Shown: piece by piece, positions 584 to 12,898 of the stretch | How positions within the stretch are numbered: the first letter of the stretch is position 1 | How the letters are laid out: the number at the start of each line of letters is the position of its first letter | Virus record (IMG/VR): IMGVR_UViG_3300028829_002723 | Location: 1-20,542 of that record | Strand: one strand, 5' to 3' | Length of the DNA: 20,542 nucleotides | DNA from: a virus | Notes under the pieces: model-generated | The model's database searches: none | What the model saw: the letters and a program-made list of their open reading frames with translations, nothing else | Told to the model about the DNA's origin: nothing | Translations under genes and position numbers: made by a program

Positions 584-592
584 GTATTTATA
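584..592 (+). promoter_or_regulatory. GTATTTATA leader motif before the GNAT gene
   Basis: GTATTTATA lies 13 bases before the ATG at 606, on the coding strand. Near-identical ATATTTATA occurs on the coding strand just before the genes starting at 7142 and 8896, and a related GTTTATAT precedes the gene starting at 3755. The role could be a phage promoter element or simply an AT-rich ribosome-binding leader, since Bacteroidota do not rely on Shine-Dalgarno pairing. Confidence 0.25.
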
Positions 593-605
593 ATAAAAGA
601 TTCAT

Positions 606-1667
606 ATGAAGAAATTTATCAAAAAAATGTTACATGAACATTGGGGACGTGGGAATGGTGGAATGGCATCAACTGAAGACCCTCTTGGTATGGAACTTGA
701 TGGATTAGCACACCAAGAAATGAGTCCTCGTGAATACCAAATCGCACTTAATAGAATTGAAGATAAATACATGTCTAGATATGCTGAATATGAAGGTGAT
801 AGTTATGGTATTATTGATGCTATAAAAAGATTTATCCCAAATAAACTAGCTGCCTTATATGATGATATGCATCCACATGTTAATATGAATGAATCAGATG
901 AACCAGAAAGTATTGATTCTGTAGATATTTCTTTACTAATGTCTTTAGTTGATGAGTATCCAGATTTGGTTAATTTTTATAAAACATCTCTTCCATCGTT
1001 AAGGTTTAAAATTAACGAAAACGAAGAGTTGGTATATGGGGAACATAGTTTTATATTACCAAGTTATATGATAGAATATAGTGAAATTTTTGATAGAACA
1101 GGATTTAAGGGTTGGAGTGTTAATAAGCATGATTATACACCAAATGGTAGAGATAGAGATAAAACTACACATAAATTTGGACCAGACGAAACTGATAAGG
1201 TTTATAAATTAATGAAAAGAATTATTAATAATCTTATCCGAAAATCTAACACAAGTCAAGTTAGTAATGAAACTCTTAATATGAATGAATCAGAAGAAGA
1301 ATTAAAATTCAATACTGATGGTAGATTCAATAAATCTGGTGCTAATACAATTTATATGGGTGAAAACCCAATAGTTGACTTTGGTGTTGGTGGGATTGGT
1401 GATTTGACTATCAATGGTGAGACAATACCTAACGCACTTTATCTTAAGGGTGGGTATAACGCTTCTGAACAAGGAAAAGGTTATGGTTCTGAGGGACTTA
1501 AGTTTATTTTCCAAAAATTACCTAAAATACAGAATATTGTACTTCAATGTTTCGATACTGCTTGTCCTTTCTGGGTTAAAATGGGTGGTCAAGAGGTTGC
1601 AACTAAAGAAATGGAAAGTGGTCATGTTCTTAGGACACTTAGAATCTCTAGAGACTCATTTGAGTAA
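606..1667 (+). CDS. Three-segment protein with C-terminal GNAT-like acetyltransferase domain
   Basis: This is the only plus-strand gene. The C-terminal part (about residues 232-353) looks like a GNAT N-acetyltransferase. SEQGKGYG (287-294) fits the acetyl-CoA-binding Q/R-x-x-G-x-G/A loop, a helix follows, and CPFWVKMGG (320-328) fits the usual F-Y-x-K-x-G-F element. The substrate is unknown. Segments 1-96 and 98-227 match nothing I recognise. Each ends in the same motif, VNMNESDE (92-99) and LNMNESEE (224-231), encoded by an exact 19-base direct repeat. The N-terminus MKKFIKKMLHE is short, basic, amphipathic and ends in L-x-E, like T4 capsid-targeting peptides cut by the prohead protease. A virion-packaged, processed protein is therefore possible, but this is inference. 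The ATG at 606 follows a 58-base divergent region. The TAA abuts the primase stop with no gap. Confidence is high for the gene, moderate for GNAT and low for packaging. Confidence 0.7.
   Translation: MKKFIKKMLHEHWGRGNGGMASTEDPLGMELDGLAHQEMSPREYQIALNRIEDKYMSRYAEYEGDSYGIIDAIKRFIPNKLAALYDDMHPHVNMNESDEPESIDSVDISLLMSLVDEYPDLVNFYKTSLPSLRFKINENEELVYGEHSFILPSYMIEYSEIFDRTGFKGWSVNKHDYTPNGRDRDKTTHKFGPDETDKVYKLMKRIINNLIRKSNTSQVSNETLNMNESEEELKFNTDGRFNKSGANTIYMGENPIVDFGVGGIGDLTINGETIPNALYLKGGYNASEQGKGYGSEGLKFIFQKLPKIQNIVLQCFDTACPFWVKMGGQEVATKEMESGHVLRTLRISRDSFE
880..898 (+). repeat. 19-base direct repeat, copy 1 (encodes NMNES linker)
   Basis: TTAATATGAATGAATCAGA is identical to 1276-1294 and lies in the same reading frame, 396 bases (132 codons) apart. 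It encodes the NMNES core at residues 93-97 of the GNAT-domain protein. It marks the border between the first and second segments. Confidence 0.9.
1276..1294 (+). repeat. 19-base direct repeat, copy 2 (encodes NMNES linker)
   Basis: Exact second copy of 880-898, in frame, encoding NMNES at residues 225-229. It lies immediately before the GNAT-like domain, so the repeat separates recognisable folding units. Confidence 0.9.
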
Positions 1668-2613: not shown

Positions 2614-2623
2614 CAAATATACG
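2614..2623 (-). promoter_or_regulatory. TAnnTTTG promoter box before the primase gene
   Basis: On the minus strand the site reads CGTATATTTG, containing TATATTTG, a full match to the Bacteroidota -7 consensus TAnnTTTG. It ends 4 bases before the primase ATG, which would put the transcription start at or inside the start codon. The octamer CGTATATT is shared with the nuclease leader. About 19 bases upstream only TTGTG is seen, a weak -33 candidate. Confidence 0.35.
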
Positions 2624-3132: not shown

Positions 3133-3755
3133 AACCAAAGACCATCCCTTTTCATGACTGCCTTAACACAAGAATATGCATCAGTCATATCAAAATTTTC
3201 CTTCTTAAGAGTTGCTTTTGATGTGTAAAGCCATGTGATTTGTGGTTCAAGGTCTGCAACCTTTTCCCATACAACCATCTTCTTGTCAACATCGAAACTA
3301 TATCCACCGAACAAGACTGGTTTTTTTCTCTTCATTTCAGTTTCACTGTACGCTTCACCTTTCTTGTTTTTAGTTCTGATTTCCATTAATTCTGGATATG
3401 CAAATGCTCTAGAATCATATGATGATATATACTCTGGTATAATACCAAGGATATTGTAAACTGACCTAGAAACCATACCATTAAATCGTAGAAGTGTTGC
3501 AACTGTATTTACATTGTTGGAGCGTAGAAGTGGTTCCTCAATGATTACTCTTGTGATACCAACATCAGCATACTTATTCAAAAACTCTTCTTCAAAGATA
3601 TTTGCTTTTTCACATAATTCTTCAATCTTAGTTTCTGGTTTTGGTTTAACTTTAGGTGTAACATGAGTTAATACTTTAAGGTCACCCTTACCGTCATTAT
3701 CCTCAAATAATGCCACACCAATTGTTTTGGTTGAAATGTCTAATCCTAGTATCAT
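3129..3755 (-). CDS. RuvC-like Holliday junction resolvase (RNase H fold)
   Basis: The 208-residue protein has the RuvC/RNase H signature. MILGLDISTKTIGVALFE (1-18) forms the first beta hairpin with catalytic D6. RVIIEEPLL (69-77) gives the second acid, E73 or E74. FDMTDAYSC (188-196) gives D189 and D192 in the C-terminal helix. The family cuts four-way junctions and branched DNA, which phages need before packaging and during recombination-dependent replication. The loop between strands 1 and 2 and the Lys-rich segment 127-146 (RTKNKKGEAY...KRKK) are probable DNA-contact regions. It is the first gene after the virion module, with a 46-base gap containing a TAnnTTTG box. Its TGA overlaps the ATG of the zinc-finger gene. 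An RNase-H-fold nuclease of another branch is possible but less likely. Confidence 0.82.
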   Translation of the reverse strand: MILGLDISTKTIGVALFEDNDGKGDLKVLTHVTPKVKPKPETKIEELCEKANIFEEEFLNKYADVGITRVIIEEPLLRSNNVNTVATLLRFNGMVSRSVYNILGIIPEYISSYDSRAFAYPELMEIRTKNKKGEAYSETEMKRKKPVLFGGYSFDVDKKMVVWEKVADLEPQITWLYTSKATLKKENFDMTDAYSCVKAVMKRDGLWL

Positions 3756-3788
3756 AAAACTTTTTTATTTAATATAAACACTATTAGA

Positions 3789-3796
3789 CAAAACTA
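3789..3796 (-). promoter_or_regulatory. TAnnTTTG box in the gap before the resolvase gene
   Basis: The minus strand reads TAGTTTTG here, matching the Bacteroidota -7 consensus, about 33 bases before the resolvase ATG. This would give a leader of roughly 25 bases. The only upstream TTTG is about 25 bases away, wider than the usual spacing of about 19-20. The 46-base gap holds no terminator-like hairpin, so readthrough from the virion genes is equally possible. Confidence 0.28.
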
Positions 3797-9642: not shown

Positions 9643-10725
9643 TTATTGTTTAATCATTAATATACCAGCAGCATCTAAAGGAGACGCACCAGCACCAGTC
9701 GTTTGATAAACCATACCTATAGTAAGACCACCAACCCCAGCAGCTGCATCGTCAGCATAAGATGGACAGTTTACAATATTTAAGTCTGGTACATATACCA
9801 TATCAGCTGTAGTACCAGTTATATCACTACCACCTAATACAACTGAATTAGTTGCACCTGTTGTGATGTGGTTATCAGTACCACCTAGTATTGCTGAATA
9901 ATCACTATATACACCCAGCCCAGTTGTAGTAGAATAAAAATGAACAAATGATTCATTACCATCAGCAACACCTCTACGACCACCAGCATGTGAAGCAACA
10001 CCATTAGCTTCTGTGAAATACCCCTCAGCATGTGATTGGTTTCCATTTGCTATTGTAGTAAGACCTTCTGCATGAGCATTAGGTCCACTAGCTATAGTAC
10101 CTTGACCCTCAGCATGTGCTGCAAAATTACTAGTTATTGTATTAAGACCCTCAGCATGTGAATTAGTTCCACCAGCTATAGTTCCACTACCCTCAGCATG
10201 TGATGTAGTACCACTAGCTGTCGTACCGTCACCCTCAGCATGTGATGCGGTACCACTAGCTTGAGTACCATTACCCTCAGCGTGTGATGCGGTACCAGAA
10301 GCTATTGTGTTAACCCCCTCAGCGTGTGATGTGGTACCAGTTGCTAGGGTGGTGTCACCTTCTGCATGTGAATTAGGTCCACTAGCTATAGTAGTGTTAC
10401 CTTCGGCATGTGATGCAGTACCACTTGCTTTTGTACTATCATTCTCAGCATGTGAATAATTACCAGTCGCCCTAGTTAAATTACCTTCCGCAACTGAATA
10501 ATCACCTGTTGATACCGTACCACCACTTATTGTTTTTACTGAACCAGTACCTGTAGAACCAGAGGTCCAATACGAAACCCCATAATATTCAGATAATCCA
10601 CTTAAAGGTATTTTGAATGATGTACCTTCTGCACTGTCAGTAGTATCACTTACATCCACCATGTGAATTACATCATTACCAGCTGGTGTTCCACTAAATG
10701 CGTCTTGACCTGTTAATTTTCCCAT
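9643..10725 (-). CDS. Trimeric tail fibre with YadA-head-like SHAEG repeats (360 aa)
   Basis: Residues 77-258 are thirteen uninterrupted 14-residue repeats of the type SHAEGxxTxASGxx. This is the YadA/Hep_Hag head repeat, which folds as a trimeric left-handed beta-roll in adhesins and phage fibres. It is followed by YSAILGGTDNHITTGATNSV (277-296), a related capping repeat. The C-terminus DDAAAGVGGLTIGMVYQTTG (325-344) resembles the ends of many phage fibres. The N-terminus MGKLTGQDAFSGTPAGNDVI (1-20) is the probable virion-attachment part. The consensus His and Glu recur every 14 residues, so they should line up as ladders along the roll; ten of thirteen repeats carry the intact HAEG. The protein most likely binds a host surface polysaccharide or protein. 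The ATG at 10725 has an A-rich leader typical of Bacteroidota. It belongs to the leftward virion operon. Confidence 0.8.
   Translation of the reverse strand: MGKLTGQDAFSGTPAGNDVIHMVDVSDTTDSAEGTSFKIPLSGLSEYYGVSYWTSGSTGTGSVKTISGGTVSTGDYSVAEGNLTRATGNYSHAENDSTKASGTASHAEGNTTIASGPNSHAEGDTTLATGTTSHAEGVNTIASGTASHAEGNGTQASGTASHAEGDGTTASGTTSHAEGSGTIAGGTNSHAEGLNTITSNFAAHAEGQGTIASGPNAHAEGLTTIANGNQSHAEGYFTEANGVASHAGGRRGVADGNESFVHFYSTTTGLGVYSDYSAILGGTDNHITTGATNSVVLGGSDITGTTADMVYVPDLNIVNCPSYADDAAAGVGGLTIGMVYQTTGAGASPLDAAGILMIKQ
9952..10497 (-). repeat. Thirteen tandem 42-base repeats within the fibre gene
   Basis: Codons 77-258 are 13 x 42 bases with no insertions or deletions. The copies are similar but not identical in DNA, with a core seen on the plus strand as CCCTCAGCATGTGA and variants. 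The inner copies (133-174) are closest to each other. Such an array can change length by recombination or slippage in steps of 14 residues without breaking the frame. Confidence 0.92.
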
Positions 10726-10753: not shown

Positions 10754-12898
10754 TTAATTAAATTCATATGGTGTATCATCTTGGAATAAGAAATCTTCAC
10801 CATCTTGGAAGTTCTTAATACAAAGAGTTGTGATATCCAATGTTAAATCAACCTTAAATGTTTCATTTAAATAATTAACACCCTCACAATCTACCACGTC
10901 AGTAAATATAACCTCAGTAGCACCACTTGTAAATTCTAACCCTAATGTTGCAGCAATCCCACTCAACTCAATAAGATACTCTTGTTGTGTTGGTGTATCT
11001 GTGATTCCAGTACTAACATAGAATGAATCGTTACTATAAATAGTCTCACATCCCAAACTAACATCTATACCCCAAATAGTATCTACAGTACACCCACTTT
11101 GGAAGTCTGGCTCACATGCTAACGTTTGTGCTGAAAGTATTGCACCAAAATCATAATCTGTAGACGCAGTTACTGATGTAGTACCAGTTGTACAGTCTAA
11201 TAGACATGGGTTATCCTTAACATAACAATATAAATCTTGTTCTATTGCATTGGCTGGGTTGATATCTAAATCAACTTCTTTACTATTTATTGCAAGTCTA
11301 TAATCCTTAATATTATATCCAGTACCCCTTAATTTAAGGTCGAACTCTCTTTTCTCAGCGTCTTCATTAGTAAGCCATGATTTCTTATTGTCACAAACCC
11401 TTACCAAGTCAAAACTTGGACACTTGTTAATTCTAATGGTAGTACTTTCAGTGTTACTACATTCCTTATTCATTTCGATTCTATCGATTAGGATACCTAA
11501 ATCAAAACAACAATCGTTAATCTTAAGTGATATCTTAATCTCTTGATTCGTAATTCCAGAAATAATTGCTGGGTCAGTTATGTTAATGTCTGCCCCAAGC
11601 CATTCTGAATTAAATGATGTATTTACTAAGTCTACCAATTCAGAATTAGTTTCAAAAATACCAGTTAAGTCTCCAGTTGCATTTATGTCATCAACCAACC
11701 CACCTTCAATAACCTCACATATGTTGTTAGTTTCTGAACCACTAATATAAAATCCAGTTTTACCATTAGCAGATAATAAATAATCTAAGAGATTATCTTC
11801 ACCAATATTAAATATTGTTTCTTCATAAACCGTTGTTGATACTGGTGTGTTAGCTGGTGATGGATAATCAATAACCTCTAATGTCATAGAAACATTAAGA
11901 GTTTCCAACATTTCTAAGAATGTATTACAATTAGTATCACCAATTAAGGTTGCTATTTGAATCTGAATTTCATCACATTCATTTGTAAGTGTTATTATCT
12001 CTTCTTGAGTTTCAGTTATTTGAGTTATTATTTCTTGTCTAGTCGTAACACTAACATCACAAGTACCTATAAGGTCACCACTTCCATTATCTAAATCAAG
12101 AAGTGCATCAACATCAACACATGTATATAGTGAAGTGTTCACACCCTCTGATGCAAACCAAGTATCATAATTTACAGTCCCTAAAATTGTATTCCAAGCA
12201 GTTAAACCATTAGGTGTTAAACAATATGTTACTATTCCATATTCACTTATTGGGAATGCGTTAGGTGGTAATAATGAATTGAATCCACCAACAGTTTTTT
12301 GTGTTTCATGAACTTCATGTTCTGGGTCTTTTATAATTTCACTACACTGAATAACATATGGTGTATTACTCAATTCAGTAGTCAACGAAATAAGATTAAC
12401 CTCAAGTGTACTTACCAATGTAGATATTTCTTCACATCTACCACTTAATTGGAAAACCAATGCTTGAGTATCACCATCTAAGGTAAATAATTGATTTGCT
12501 TGTAGTGCATCATATATAATATCACAATCAAGATTAAATAAATAATCAAATTTAACATTTAATATACAGTCCTCACCATTATCACCGTCAACATCAAAGA
12601 TAACCCCAGCATTACCATTTGGATTTAATACTAATTGATATGGTTTATTATCTTCATCACAACCAGCACCCCATCTACATTGTTGTTCGTTAAAATCAAA
12701 CGTATACGATGGATTAAGCGTCTCGCAACACTCTTTAGTCAATGGTCTGTAACTACCATCATTATTATATACTGATACAGACCCGTCAGAATTCTCATTT
12801 ACAATTCCACCAGTATCTACCACAGCATCACTAGTTTGACAACCAATTGGTCCATCATGACCACTACCATCTTTATTATGTGGAAAAAAATACCCCAT
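10754..12898 (-). CDS. Large Cys-rich virion protein with two coiled coils (714 aa)
   Basis: This protein of unknown fold contains 28 Cys, including pairs CC57-58 and CC463-464, spread along its whole length, which is high for a phage tail protein. Two heptad-like helices are visible: about 155-177 (ISTLVSTLEVNLISLTTELS) and 287-318 (TRQEIITQITETQEEIITLT and following), suggesting oligomeric coiled coils. The C-terminal third has a compact segment SFDLVRVCDNKKSWLTNEDA (495-514) followed by a region with many acidic and hydrophobic strands. There is no enzyme motif and no signal peptide. It lies between the tail-protein-I-like gene, which it overlaps as TAATG, and the SHAEG fibre gene. A fibre shaft or baseplate-peripheral protein is plausible. 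The Cys residues could bind metal or form disulfides once outside the cell; the sequence does not tell which. Confidence 0.55.
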   Translation of the reverse strand: MGYFFPHNKDGSGHDGPIGCQTSDAVVDTGGIVNENSDGSVSVYNNDGSYRPLTKECCETLNPSYTFDFNEQQCRWGAGCDEDNKPYQLVLNPNGNAGVIFDVDGDNGEDCILNVKFDYLFNLDCDIIYDALQANQLFTLDGDTQALVFQLSGRCEEISTLVSTLEVNLISLTTELSNTPYVIQCSEIIKDPEHEVHETQKTVGGFNSLLPPNAFPISEYGIVTYCLTPNGLTAWNTILGTVNYDTWFASEGVNTSLYTCVDVDALLDLDNGSGDLIGTCDVSVTTRQEIITQITETQEEIITLTNECDEIQIQIATLIGDTNCNTFLEMLETLNVSMTLEVIDYPSPANTPVSTTVYEETIFNIGEDNLLDYLLSANGKTGFYISGSETNNICEVIEGGLVDDINATGDLTGIFETNSELVDLVNTSFNSEWLGADINITDPAIISGITNQEIKISLKINDCCFDLGILIDRIEMNKECSNTESTTIRINKCPSFDLVRVCDNKKSWLTNEDAEKREFDLKLRGTGYNIKDYRLAINSKEVDLDINPANAIEQDLYCYVKDNPCLLDCTTGTTSVTASTDYDFGAILSAQTLACEPDFQSGCTVDTIWGIDVSLGCETIYSNDSFYVSTGITDTPTQQEYLIELSGIAATLGLEFTSGATEVIFTDVVDCEGVNYLNETFKVDLTLDITTLCIKNFQDGEDFLFQDDTPYEFN

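Follow-up and report, generated by a model that had tools for sequence, protein, structure and literature searches.

P0001, an open reading frame (ORF) of a viral DNA stretch of 20,542 nucleotides (IMG/VR record IMGVR_UViG_3300028829_002723; hereafter the window) that is a piece of a T4-like phage genome, is best read, with moderate confidence, as encoding a late head cargo of a T4-like jumbo phage, built as a polyprotein with a putative capsid-targeting leader and joints that the prohead protease would cut. Since P0001 has a leader shared with other proteins and a capsid-type cut motif at its joints, it is probably loaded into the head, cut and injected into the next bacterium, three steps that we infer from the sequence comparisons described below.

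Translation of the ORF bears out the architecture proposed in the initial annotation, namely an 11-residue leader with an L-x-E end (L9-H10-E11) and three segments separated by two nearly identical motifs (V92-NMNESDE-99 and L224-NMNESEE-231) with P1 glutamates E96 and E228 (Table 1). The residue predicted to stand at P1' behind the leader, H, is rare among related leaders. The two junctions share an exact 19-bp DNA repeat that has no other copy in the related sequence examined. Searches of IMG/VR, INPHARED phages, PDB, Pfam and PHROGs with P0001 or its segments found no homologue beyond the same phage, and a structure model of the whole protein (pLDDT 38) was useless past secondary structure.

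A contig of 73.6 kb (G001) contains a nearly identical copy of the first 11.8 kb of the window, and two further contigs (G016 and G013) overlap G001 at 99.97% identity, which extends the same or a near-identical phage to about 153 kb. The window and these three contigs, an incomplete genome, are referred to below as this phage; its relatives, of up to 369 kb, were reached via a gp6-like protein.

Table 1. Features of the window (positions without a contig name) and of related contigs; a slash marks a putative cut.
Feature	Position	Strand	Basis or remark
P0001 ORF, 353 aa, three segments	606..1667	+	reading frame and translation, as earlier described
Late-type promoter box TATTTATA	585..592	+	21 nt upstream of the P0001 ATG
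Leader MKKFIKKMLHE, residues 1-11	606..638	+	tag match; predicted cut after E11
Segment 1, residues 12-96	639..893	+	predicted helical (low-confidence model)
Junction 1, VNMNE/SDE (cut after E96)	879..902	+	equals L424 gp23 LMNE/S and other cargo junctions
19-bp direct repeat, copy 1	880..898	+	exact DNA repeat
Segment 2, residues 97-228	894..1289	+	contains a further candidate site, INE138 (1011-1019)
Junction 2, LNMNE/SEE (cut after E228)	1275..1298	+	same motif basis as junction 1
19-bp direct repeat, copy 2	1276..1294	+	exact DNA repeat
Segment 3, residues 229-353, GNAT-like	1290..1664	+	motif-level and secondary-structure support
Zn ribbon-TLNE/S-Nudix	L311, L338
GNAT-MNE/N-leader-metalloprotease	G003:71811-72539
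GNAT-MKE-leader-Zn ribbon-NLNE/R-metalloprotease	L334:535-1401
Tagged GNAT-FLNE/A-lysozyme	L332:4513-5697
GNAT-SLNE/A-x-SLNE/G-GNAT	L349:10771-11988
Small Gp23-profile ORFs	G002:16074-16226, G017:35694-35858, G018:226610-226774
Small Gp23-profile ORFs	G004:52615-52761, G007:121592-121738, G010:123973-124134

A leader shared by unrelated phage proteins

The leader, which had been expected to recur on other proteins, does so widely: peptides of the form MKx(F/L)IKK(L/I)LRE, hereafter tags, stand in front of dozens of mutually unrelated enzymes in contigs of T4-like jumbo phages. A tag profile built without P0001 was scored on 3117 ORF starts and 10517 internal methionines; 59 of the ORF N-termini and none of the internal methionines scored above 14, while a score above 10 was reached by 62 and 2, respectively. 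P0001 scores 10.8, a weaker match than the 28-41 typical of most tags because of its residues H10, H12 and W13, and its leader is more than a chance likeness. Besides P0001, seven other unrelated ORFs of this phage carry strong tags: a CCA-adding enzyme (MKEFIRNRIREGL), an HExxH protein (MKEFIRNRIRESL) and ORFs starting MKNFIKKLLREGL, MKSFIKKLLREGL, MKTFIRKLLRESL, MKSFIRTLLRENL and MKQFIRQQLREGL; some of these tags are nearly identical over their first nine residues (e.g., MKNFIKKLL). A degenerate DNA scan of IMG/VR returned at least 120 stretches with at least 156 tagged ORFs scoring above 8, and among the matches listed two to five unrelated tagged genes often followed one another.

Tag positions 9 (L) and 11 (E) are near-invariant and correspond to P3 and P1 of the gp21 site, the near-invariance of E11 being partly built in since the scan pattern demands it. 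Tag codons vary, which rules out a conserved DNA element and indicates that selection acts on the peptide. The MKxFIKKLLRE leader is not universal, as one relative (G004) has an S77 protease and the profile scan detected no tag among its ORFs. In cultured phages, the Synechococcus phage B23 homologue of a metalloprotease found behind MKPIIKQLLRE starts with MNYKQFLRE and the S-SRM01 cytidyltransferase with MKNFHQFITE/A, and both starts look like T4-type leaders; the Flavobacterium isolate vB_FspM_immuto has an S77 protease, a gp23 site IVSE/A and leaders such as MKKSQLRQIIKEAL. Our literature searches, which left many journals uncovered, found no published description of this leader.

Two adjacent and otherwise different ORFs of this phage (G001rc 348-785 and 790-1362) share a 26-residue N-terminus of a second type, MRRFDKDKHIKKANLLAESRHLESKG, which lies in a 92-bp repeat of 96.7% identity; from this repeat, leaders seem to spread through DNA copying.

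Module junctions resemble the capsid maturation site

The gp21-like protease on which the initial annotation relied was recovered in tag-carrying relatives and not in the available sequence of this phage. A gp21-type S77 protease is encoded in tag-carrying G002 (215512-216237, minus strand), G003, G018 and G019 and in many other tagged contigs, while neither an S77 protease nor a gp23/capsid gene was found in the approximately 153 kb of this incomplete genome; a search for its gp23 yielded no contig derived from the samples of this phage. Using homology with the T4 propeptide of about 65 residues (PMC9958956), we placed the probable maturation site of gp23, the major capsid protein, in the relatives at LLTE/S, LLSE/S, LLNE/S, LINE/A and, in L424, LMNE/S. 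The consensus, L, I or M, then N, T or S, then E before S or A, agrees with the earlier proposal that M-N-E is a cut-site variant, and the L424 site is identical to the NMNE/S of P0001 from P3 to P1'. The P3 methionine of the P0001 linkers occurs once among the listed gp23 sites.

The same cut-like motif was seen at both the gp23 site and module borders in relatives only. When stand-alone homologues were compared with internal ones, (L/I/M)xE fell exactly at the leader end in 14 of 44 alignments, against 1.75% by chance, and in 8 of 38 (p about 3e-7) once internal tag copies were left out; the junction families are not fully independent, and taking six of them gives p 5e-5. One such pair involves this phage itself, where NINE/ELTKSDVK (G001rc 25684-26034) aligns with the leader MKEFIKKRLNE/ELTKSDVK of G019. 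In certain junctions, an entire second leader stands behind the NE motif (Table 1). At the C-termini of G018:14715-16301 and G002:241037-241345, leader-like peptides likewise follow NE (SLNE/SKAFIKNMLREN and INE/NNKILIKRLIKEN), perhaps as remnants of lost fusions.

These junctions in relatives support the earlier idea that P0001 would be cut into two small proteins and an acetyltransferase, which had overlooked INE138. That site matches the cut motif at least as well as the two linkers and may be a third cut site, so that the exact P0001 fragments are uncertain and may differ.

Two motif counts were also made. In tagged proteins, (L/I/M)NE is 1.70 times as frequent as expected, an enrichment that was rejected as unspecific because most untagged sets from the same genomes reach 1.3-1.6. 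Inside tagged cargo, (L/I)(T/V/A/Q/F/S)E stood at 0.65 versus 1.15-1.28 in five large genomes and at 0.95-1.05 in two pieces of this phage; a depletion would fit avoidance of cutting, and it is exploratory only because the P2 set was picked after viewing the data.

Some small ORFs located far from the gp23 gene resemble positions 144-206 of the Pfam Gp23 profile over about 50 residues (Table 1), and further small ORFs match its N-terminal 40 or so positions.

Gene position, promoter and cargo

P0001 is the only long plus-strand gene locally, within a minus-strand block. Genes nearby encode a DnaG-type primase, a RuvC-like resolvase and tail or baseplate proteins. P0001 adjoins the primase, away from known head genes and outside the clusters of tagged genes seen beside capsid genes. 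In the 50 nt upstream of the start, TATTTAT(A/T) is present for 22 of 43 tagged ORFs (P0001 among them) compared to 338 of 2146 untagged ones (p=1e-7, an optimistic value since the genomes compared are related), and in this phage it also stands before the genes for tail sheath, tail tube and gp25. The primase next to P0001 has a Bacteroidota-type promoter instead, TATATTTG (2614-2621, minus strand). Judging from gene content, TATTTAT(A/T) would mark a late class and TATATTTG an early one. The host of this T4-like jumbo phage is probably a member of the Bacteroidota.

Two sets of loci, chosen by gp23 and by gp6 and neither selected by tag, were compared for tagged ORFs. These amounted to 25 of 2277 in the gp23-chosen loci versus 1 of 1560 in the gp6-chosen loci (p=3e-5), and, counted by loci, the comparison is 15 against 1 of 80 (p=3e-4), showing that tagged genes gather beside capsid genes.

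Pfam domains found behind the tag are ART-PolyVal, GNAT, Phage_lysozyme, NUDIX and poly(A)-polymerase/CCA, and relatives contain tagged or joined GNAT, lysozyme, Nudix, ADP-ribosyltransferase and metalloprotease modules. A processed, phage-delivered acetyltransferase had been called unusual at the outset, which understates the matter: tagged or joined GNATs are present in relatives, and P0001 appears as one case of a wider system. A CCA-adding enzyme stands behind a packaging-type leader in five contigs (G001, G002, G017, G018 and G019), which suggests an injected tRNA-repair enzyme.

The last segment of P0001 carries GNAT-like motifs

The assignment of segment 3 to the GNAT family holds at the level of motifs and finds no significant profile or fold match. 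The segment contains a Q/RxxGxG motif, QGKGYG (residues 289-294, 1470-1487), in strand-helix-strand order (a beta-alpha context in a low-confidence model), and a second GNAT-like motif, FWxKMG. Searches of Pfam, NCBIfam, PDB sequences and Foldseek gave no significant match; the segment model has a pLDDT of 54, the best Foldseek E-value was about 0.7, and GNATs among the non-significant Foldseek rows were not taken as evidence. An hhalign comparison with the GNATs of relatives gave P=0.02 in the correct register, a value equalled by the best of 30 shuffles. Altogether, the motifs are suggestive of a GNAT fold and the profile comparison is marginal; we infer an acetyltransferase activity of P0001. 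This phage also encodes a separate, Pfam-confirmed GNAT starting MKLMSLYEDAMNE (G001rc 3324-3791).

Alternative explanations

P0001 could be packaged and lose its leader while the remainder travels as one uncut "polyvalent" protein, the NMNES motifs being flexible linkers copied by recombination. Such proteins are a known class that often travels uncut (PMC5512222), ART-PolyVal domains are found behind the tag, and the exact 19-bp repeat shows that the linker DNA was copied recently. We nevertheless regard this explanation as unlikely, considering that the motif at the junctions is that of the gp23 maturation site and lines up, residue by residue, with the predicted cut sites of leaders, and that certain junctions contain a whole second leader after an NE motif.

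That tags end in a near-fixed L-R-E resembling a gp21 site, that tagged genes cluster by gp23 and that the B23 metalloprotease homologue stands behind a T4-like leader make it very improbable that the leader is an amphipathic helix targeting many late proteins to a membrane or compartment, and no capsid signal, even though MKKFIKKLL is basic and amphipathic and T4 assembles its proheads at the membrane (PMC9958956). We find it just as hard to believe that the N-terminus and linkers of P0001 are chance likenesses in an ordinary accessory gene active in the infected cell: the tag score is weak, the databases searched contain no homologue and the gene lies by the primase, away from known head genes, but only about 2 of 10517 internal methionines reach that score, this phage has seven strong tags and P0001 itself carries a late-type promoter.

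A putative delivery pathway compared with known systems

If P0001 is indeed head cargo, it would be made late and residues 1-11 would recruit it to the core of the prohead. As the head matures, a gp21-type (S77) protease would cut after (L/I/M)-x-E, freeing the leader after E11 and yielding, after E96 and E228, two small proteins and a GNAT-like enzyme. Remaining inside the head, all these products would travel with the DNA into the next host, where they would probably counter defences or help to take over the cell. A single leader would thereby load several effectors in equal numbers.

In T4, the internal proteins IPI-III and Alt carry a capsid-targeting sequence (CTS) that is cut by gp21. 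There as here, a short N-terminal leader with a hydrophobic-x-E end stands on otherwise unrelated cargo, an S77 protease and gp23 are present (in relatives, here), and the late head cargo includes ADP-ribosyltransferases. Alt, the classic example of a head protein that is injected, belongs to these enzymes (PMC5512222). Within the T4 CTS, targeting depends on residues 4 and 7 and processing on residues 8 and 10 (PMC9026906); by analogy, hydrophobic residues 4, 5 and 8 and the pair 9/11 of the leader may play these roles. Unlike the T4 CTS of about 10 residues, the leader here is MKxFIKKLLRE and stands on many more cargo types, which are often polyproteins with several cut-like sites and sometimes a second internal leader. 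On sequence features, the system would work like the T4 CTS, as a variant of capsid targeting whose cargo includes polyproteins with multiple sites.

Ejection proteins of phiKZ and SPN3US (gp53/54, MANFVKSKLARESVE) are likewise jumbo-phage head proteins with a basic leader and a similar pattern, SPN3US gp53/54 starting MANFVKSKLARE (PMC5694885), and they are cut after x-x-E, comparable to the (L/I/M)-x-E candidate sites here. Their motif is however A-x-E, their propeptides mostly have 111-254 residues, and their multiple cuts trim propeptides and do not free separate modules (PMC5694885, PMC10052503). Polyvalent proteins of phages and conjugative elements are also mosaic multi-domain effectors with predicted delivery along with DNA, and they share ART-PolyVal and metallopeptidase-type domains; processing by a built-in metallopeptidase is proposed for them (PMC5512222), whereas the junctions here carry a capsid-protease motif. 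In phage P1, an N-terminal signal is similarly sufficient for bringing DarB into the head (PMC9024508), but the Dar proteins have no consensus that could be found, no shared leader family and no junction sites.

We give even chances to the broader proposal of a widespread delivery code in T4-like jumbo phages, made of a portable 11-residue leader and a capsid-protease motif used as cargo joint. If true, multi-effector polyproteins would be built and reshuffled from one gene and released as separate injected enzymes (acetyltransferases, ADP-ribosyltransferases, Nudix hydrolases, lysozymes and metalloproteases), and the capsid maturation protease would also process polyproteins, a strategy found in many eukaryotic viruses; a new leader-protease pair would be available for loading proteins into phage heads. 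ORFs starting MKxFIKKLLRE would then be head cargo, so that the proteins which many uncultured jumbo phages inject could be read from sequence; (L/I/M)-x-E joints would predict the mature parts of tagged cargo, and "hypothetical proteins" would become candidates for anti-defence and host-takeover roles.

Other features of the window

Two further features were noted in the window. A 360-residue protein (9643-10725, minus strand) contains about eight tandem ASGTxSHAEGxxT repeats and is tail-fibre or adhesin-like. About 111 bp (11107-11217), within an ORF of 714 residues (10754-12898), are missing from G001, a difference that is either a population variant or an assembly difference.
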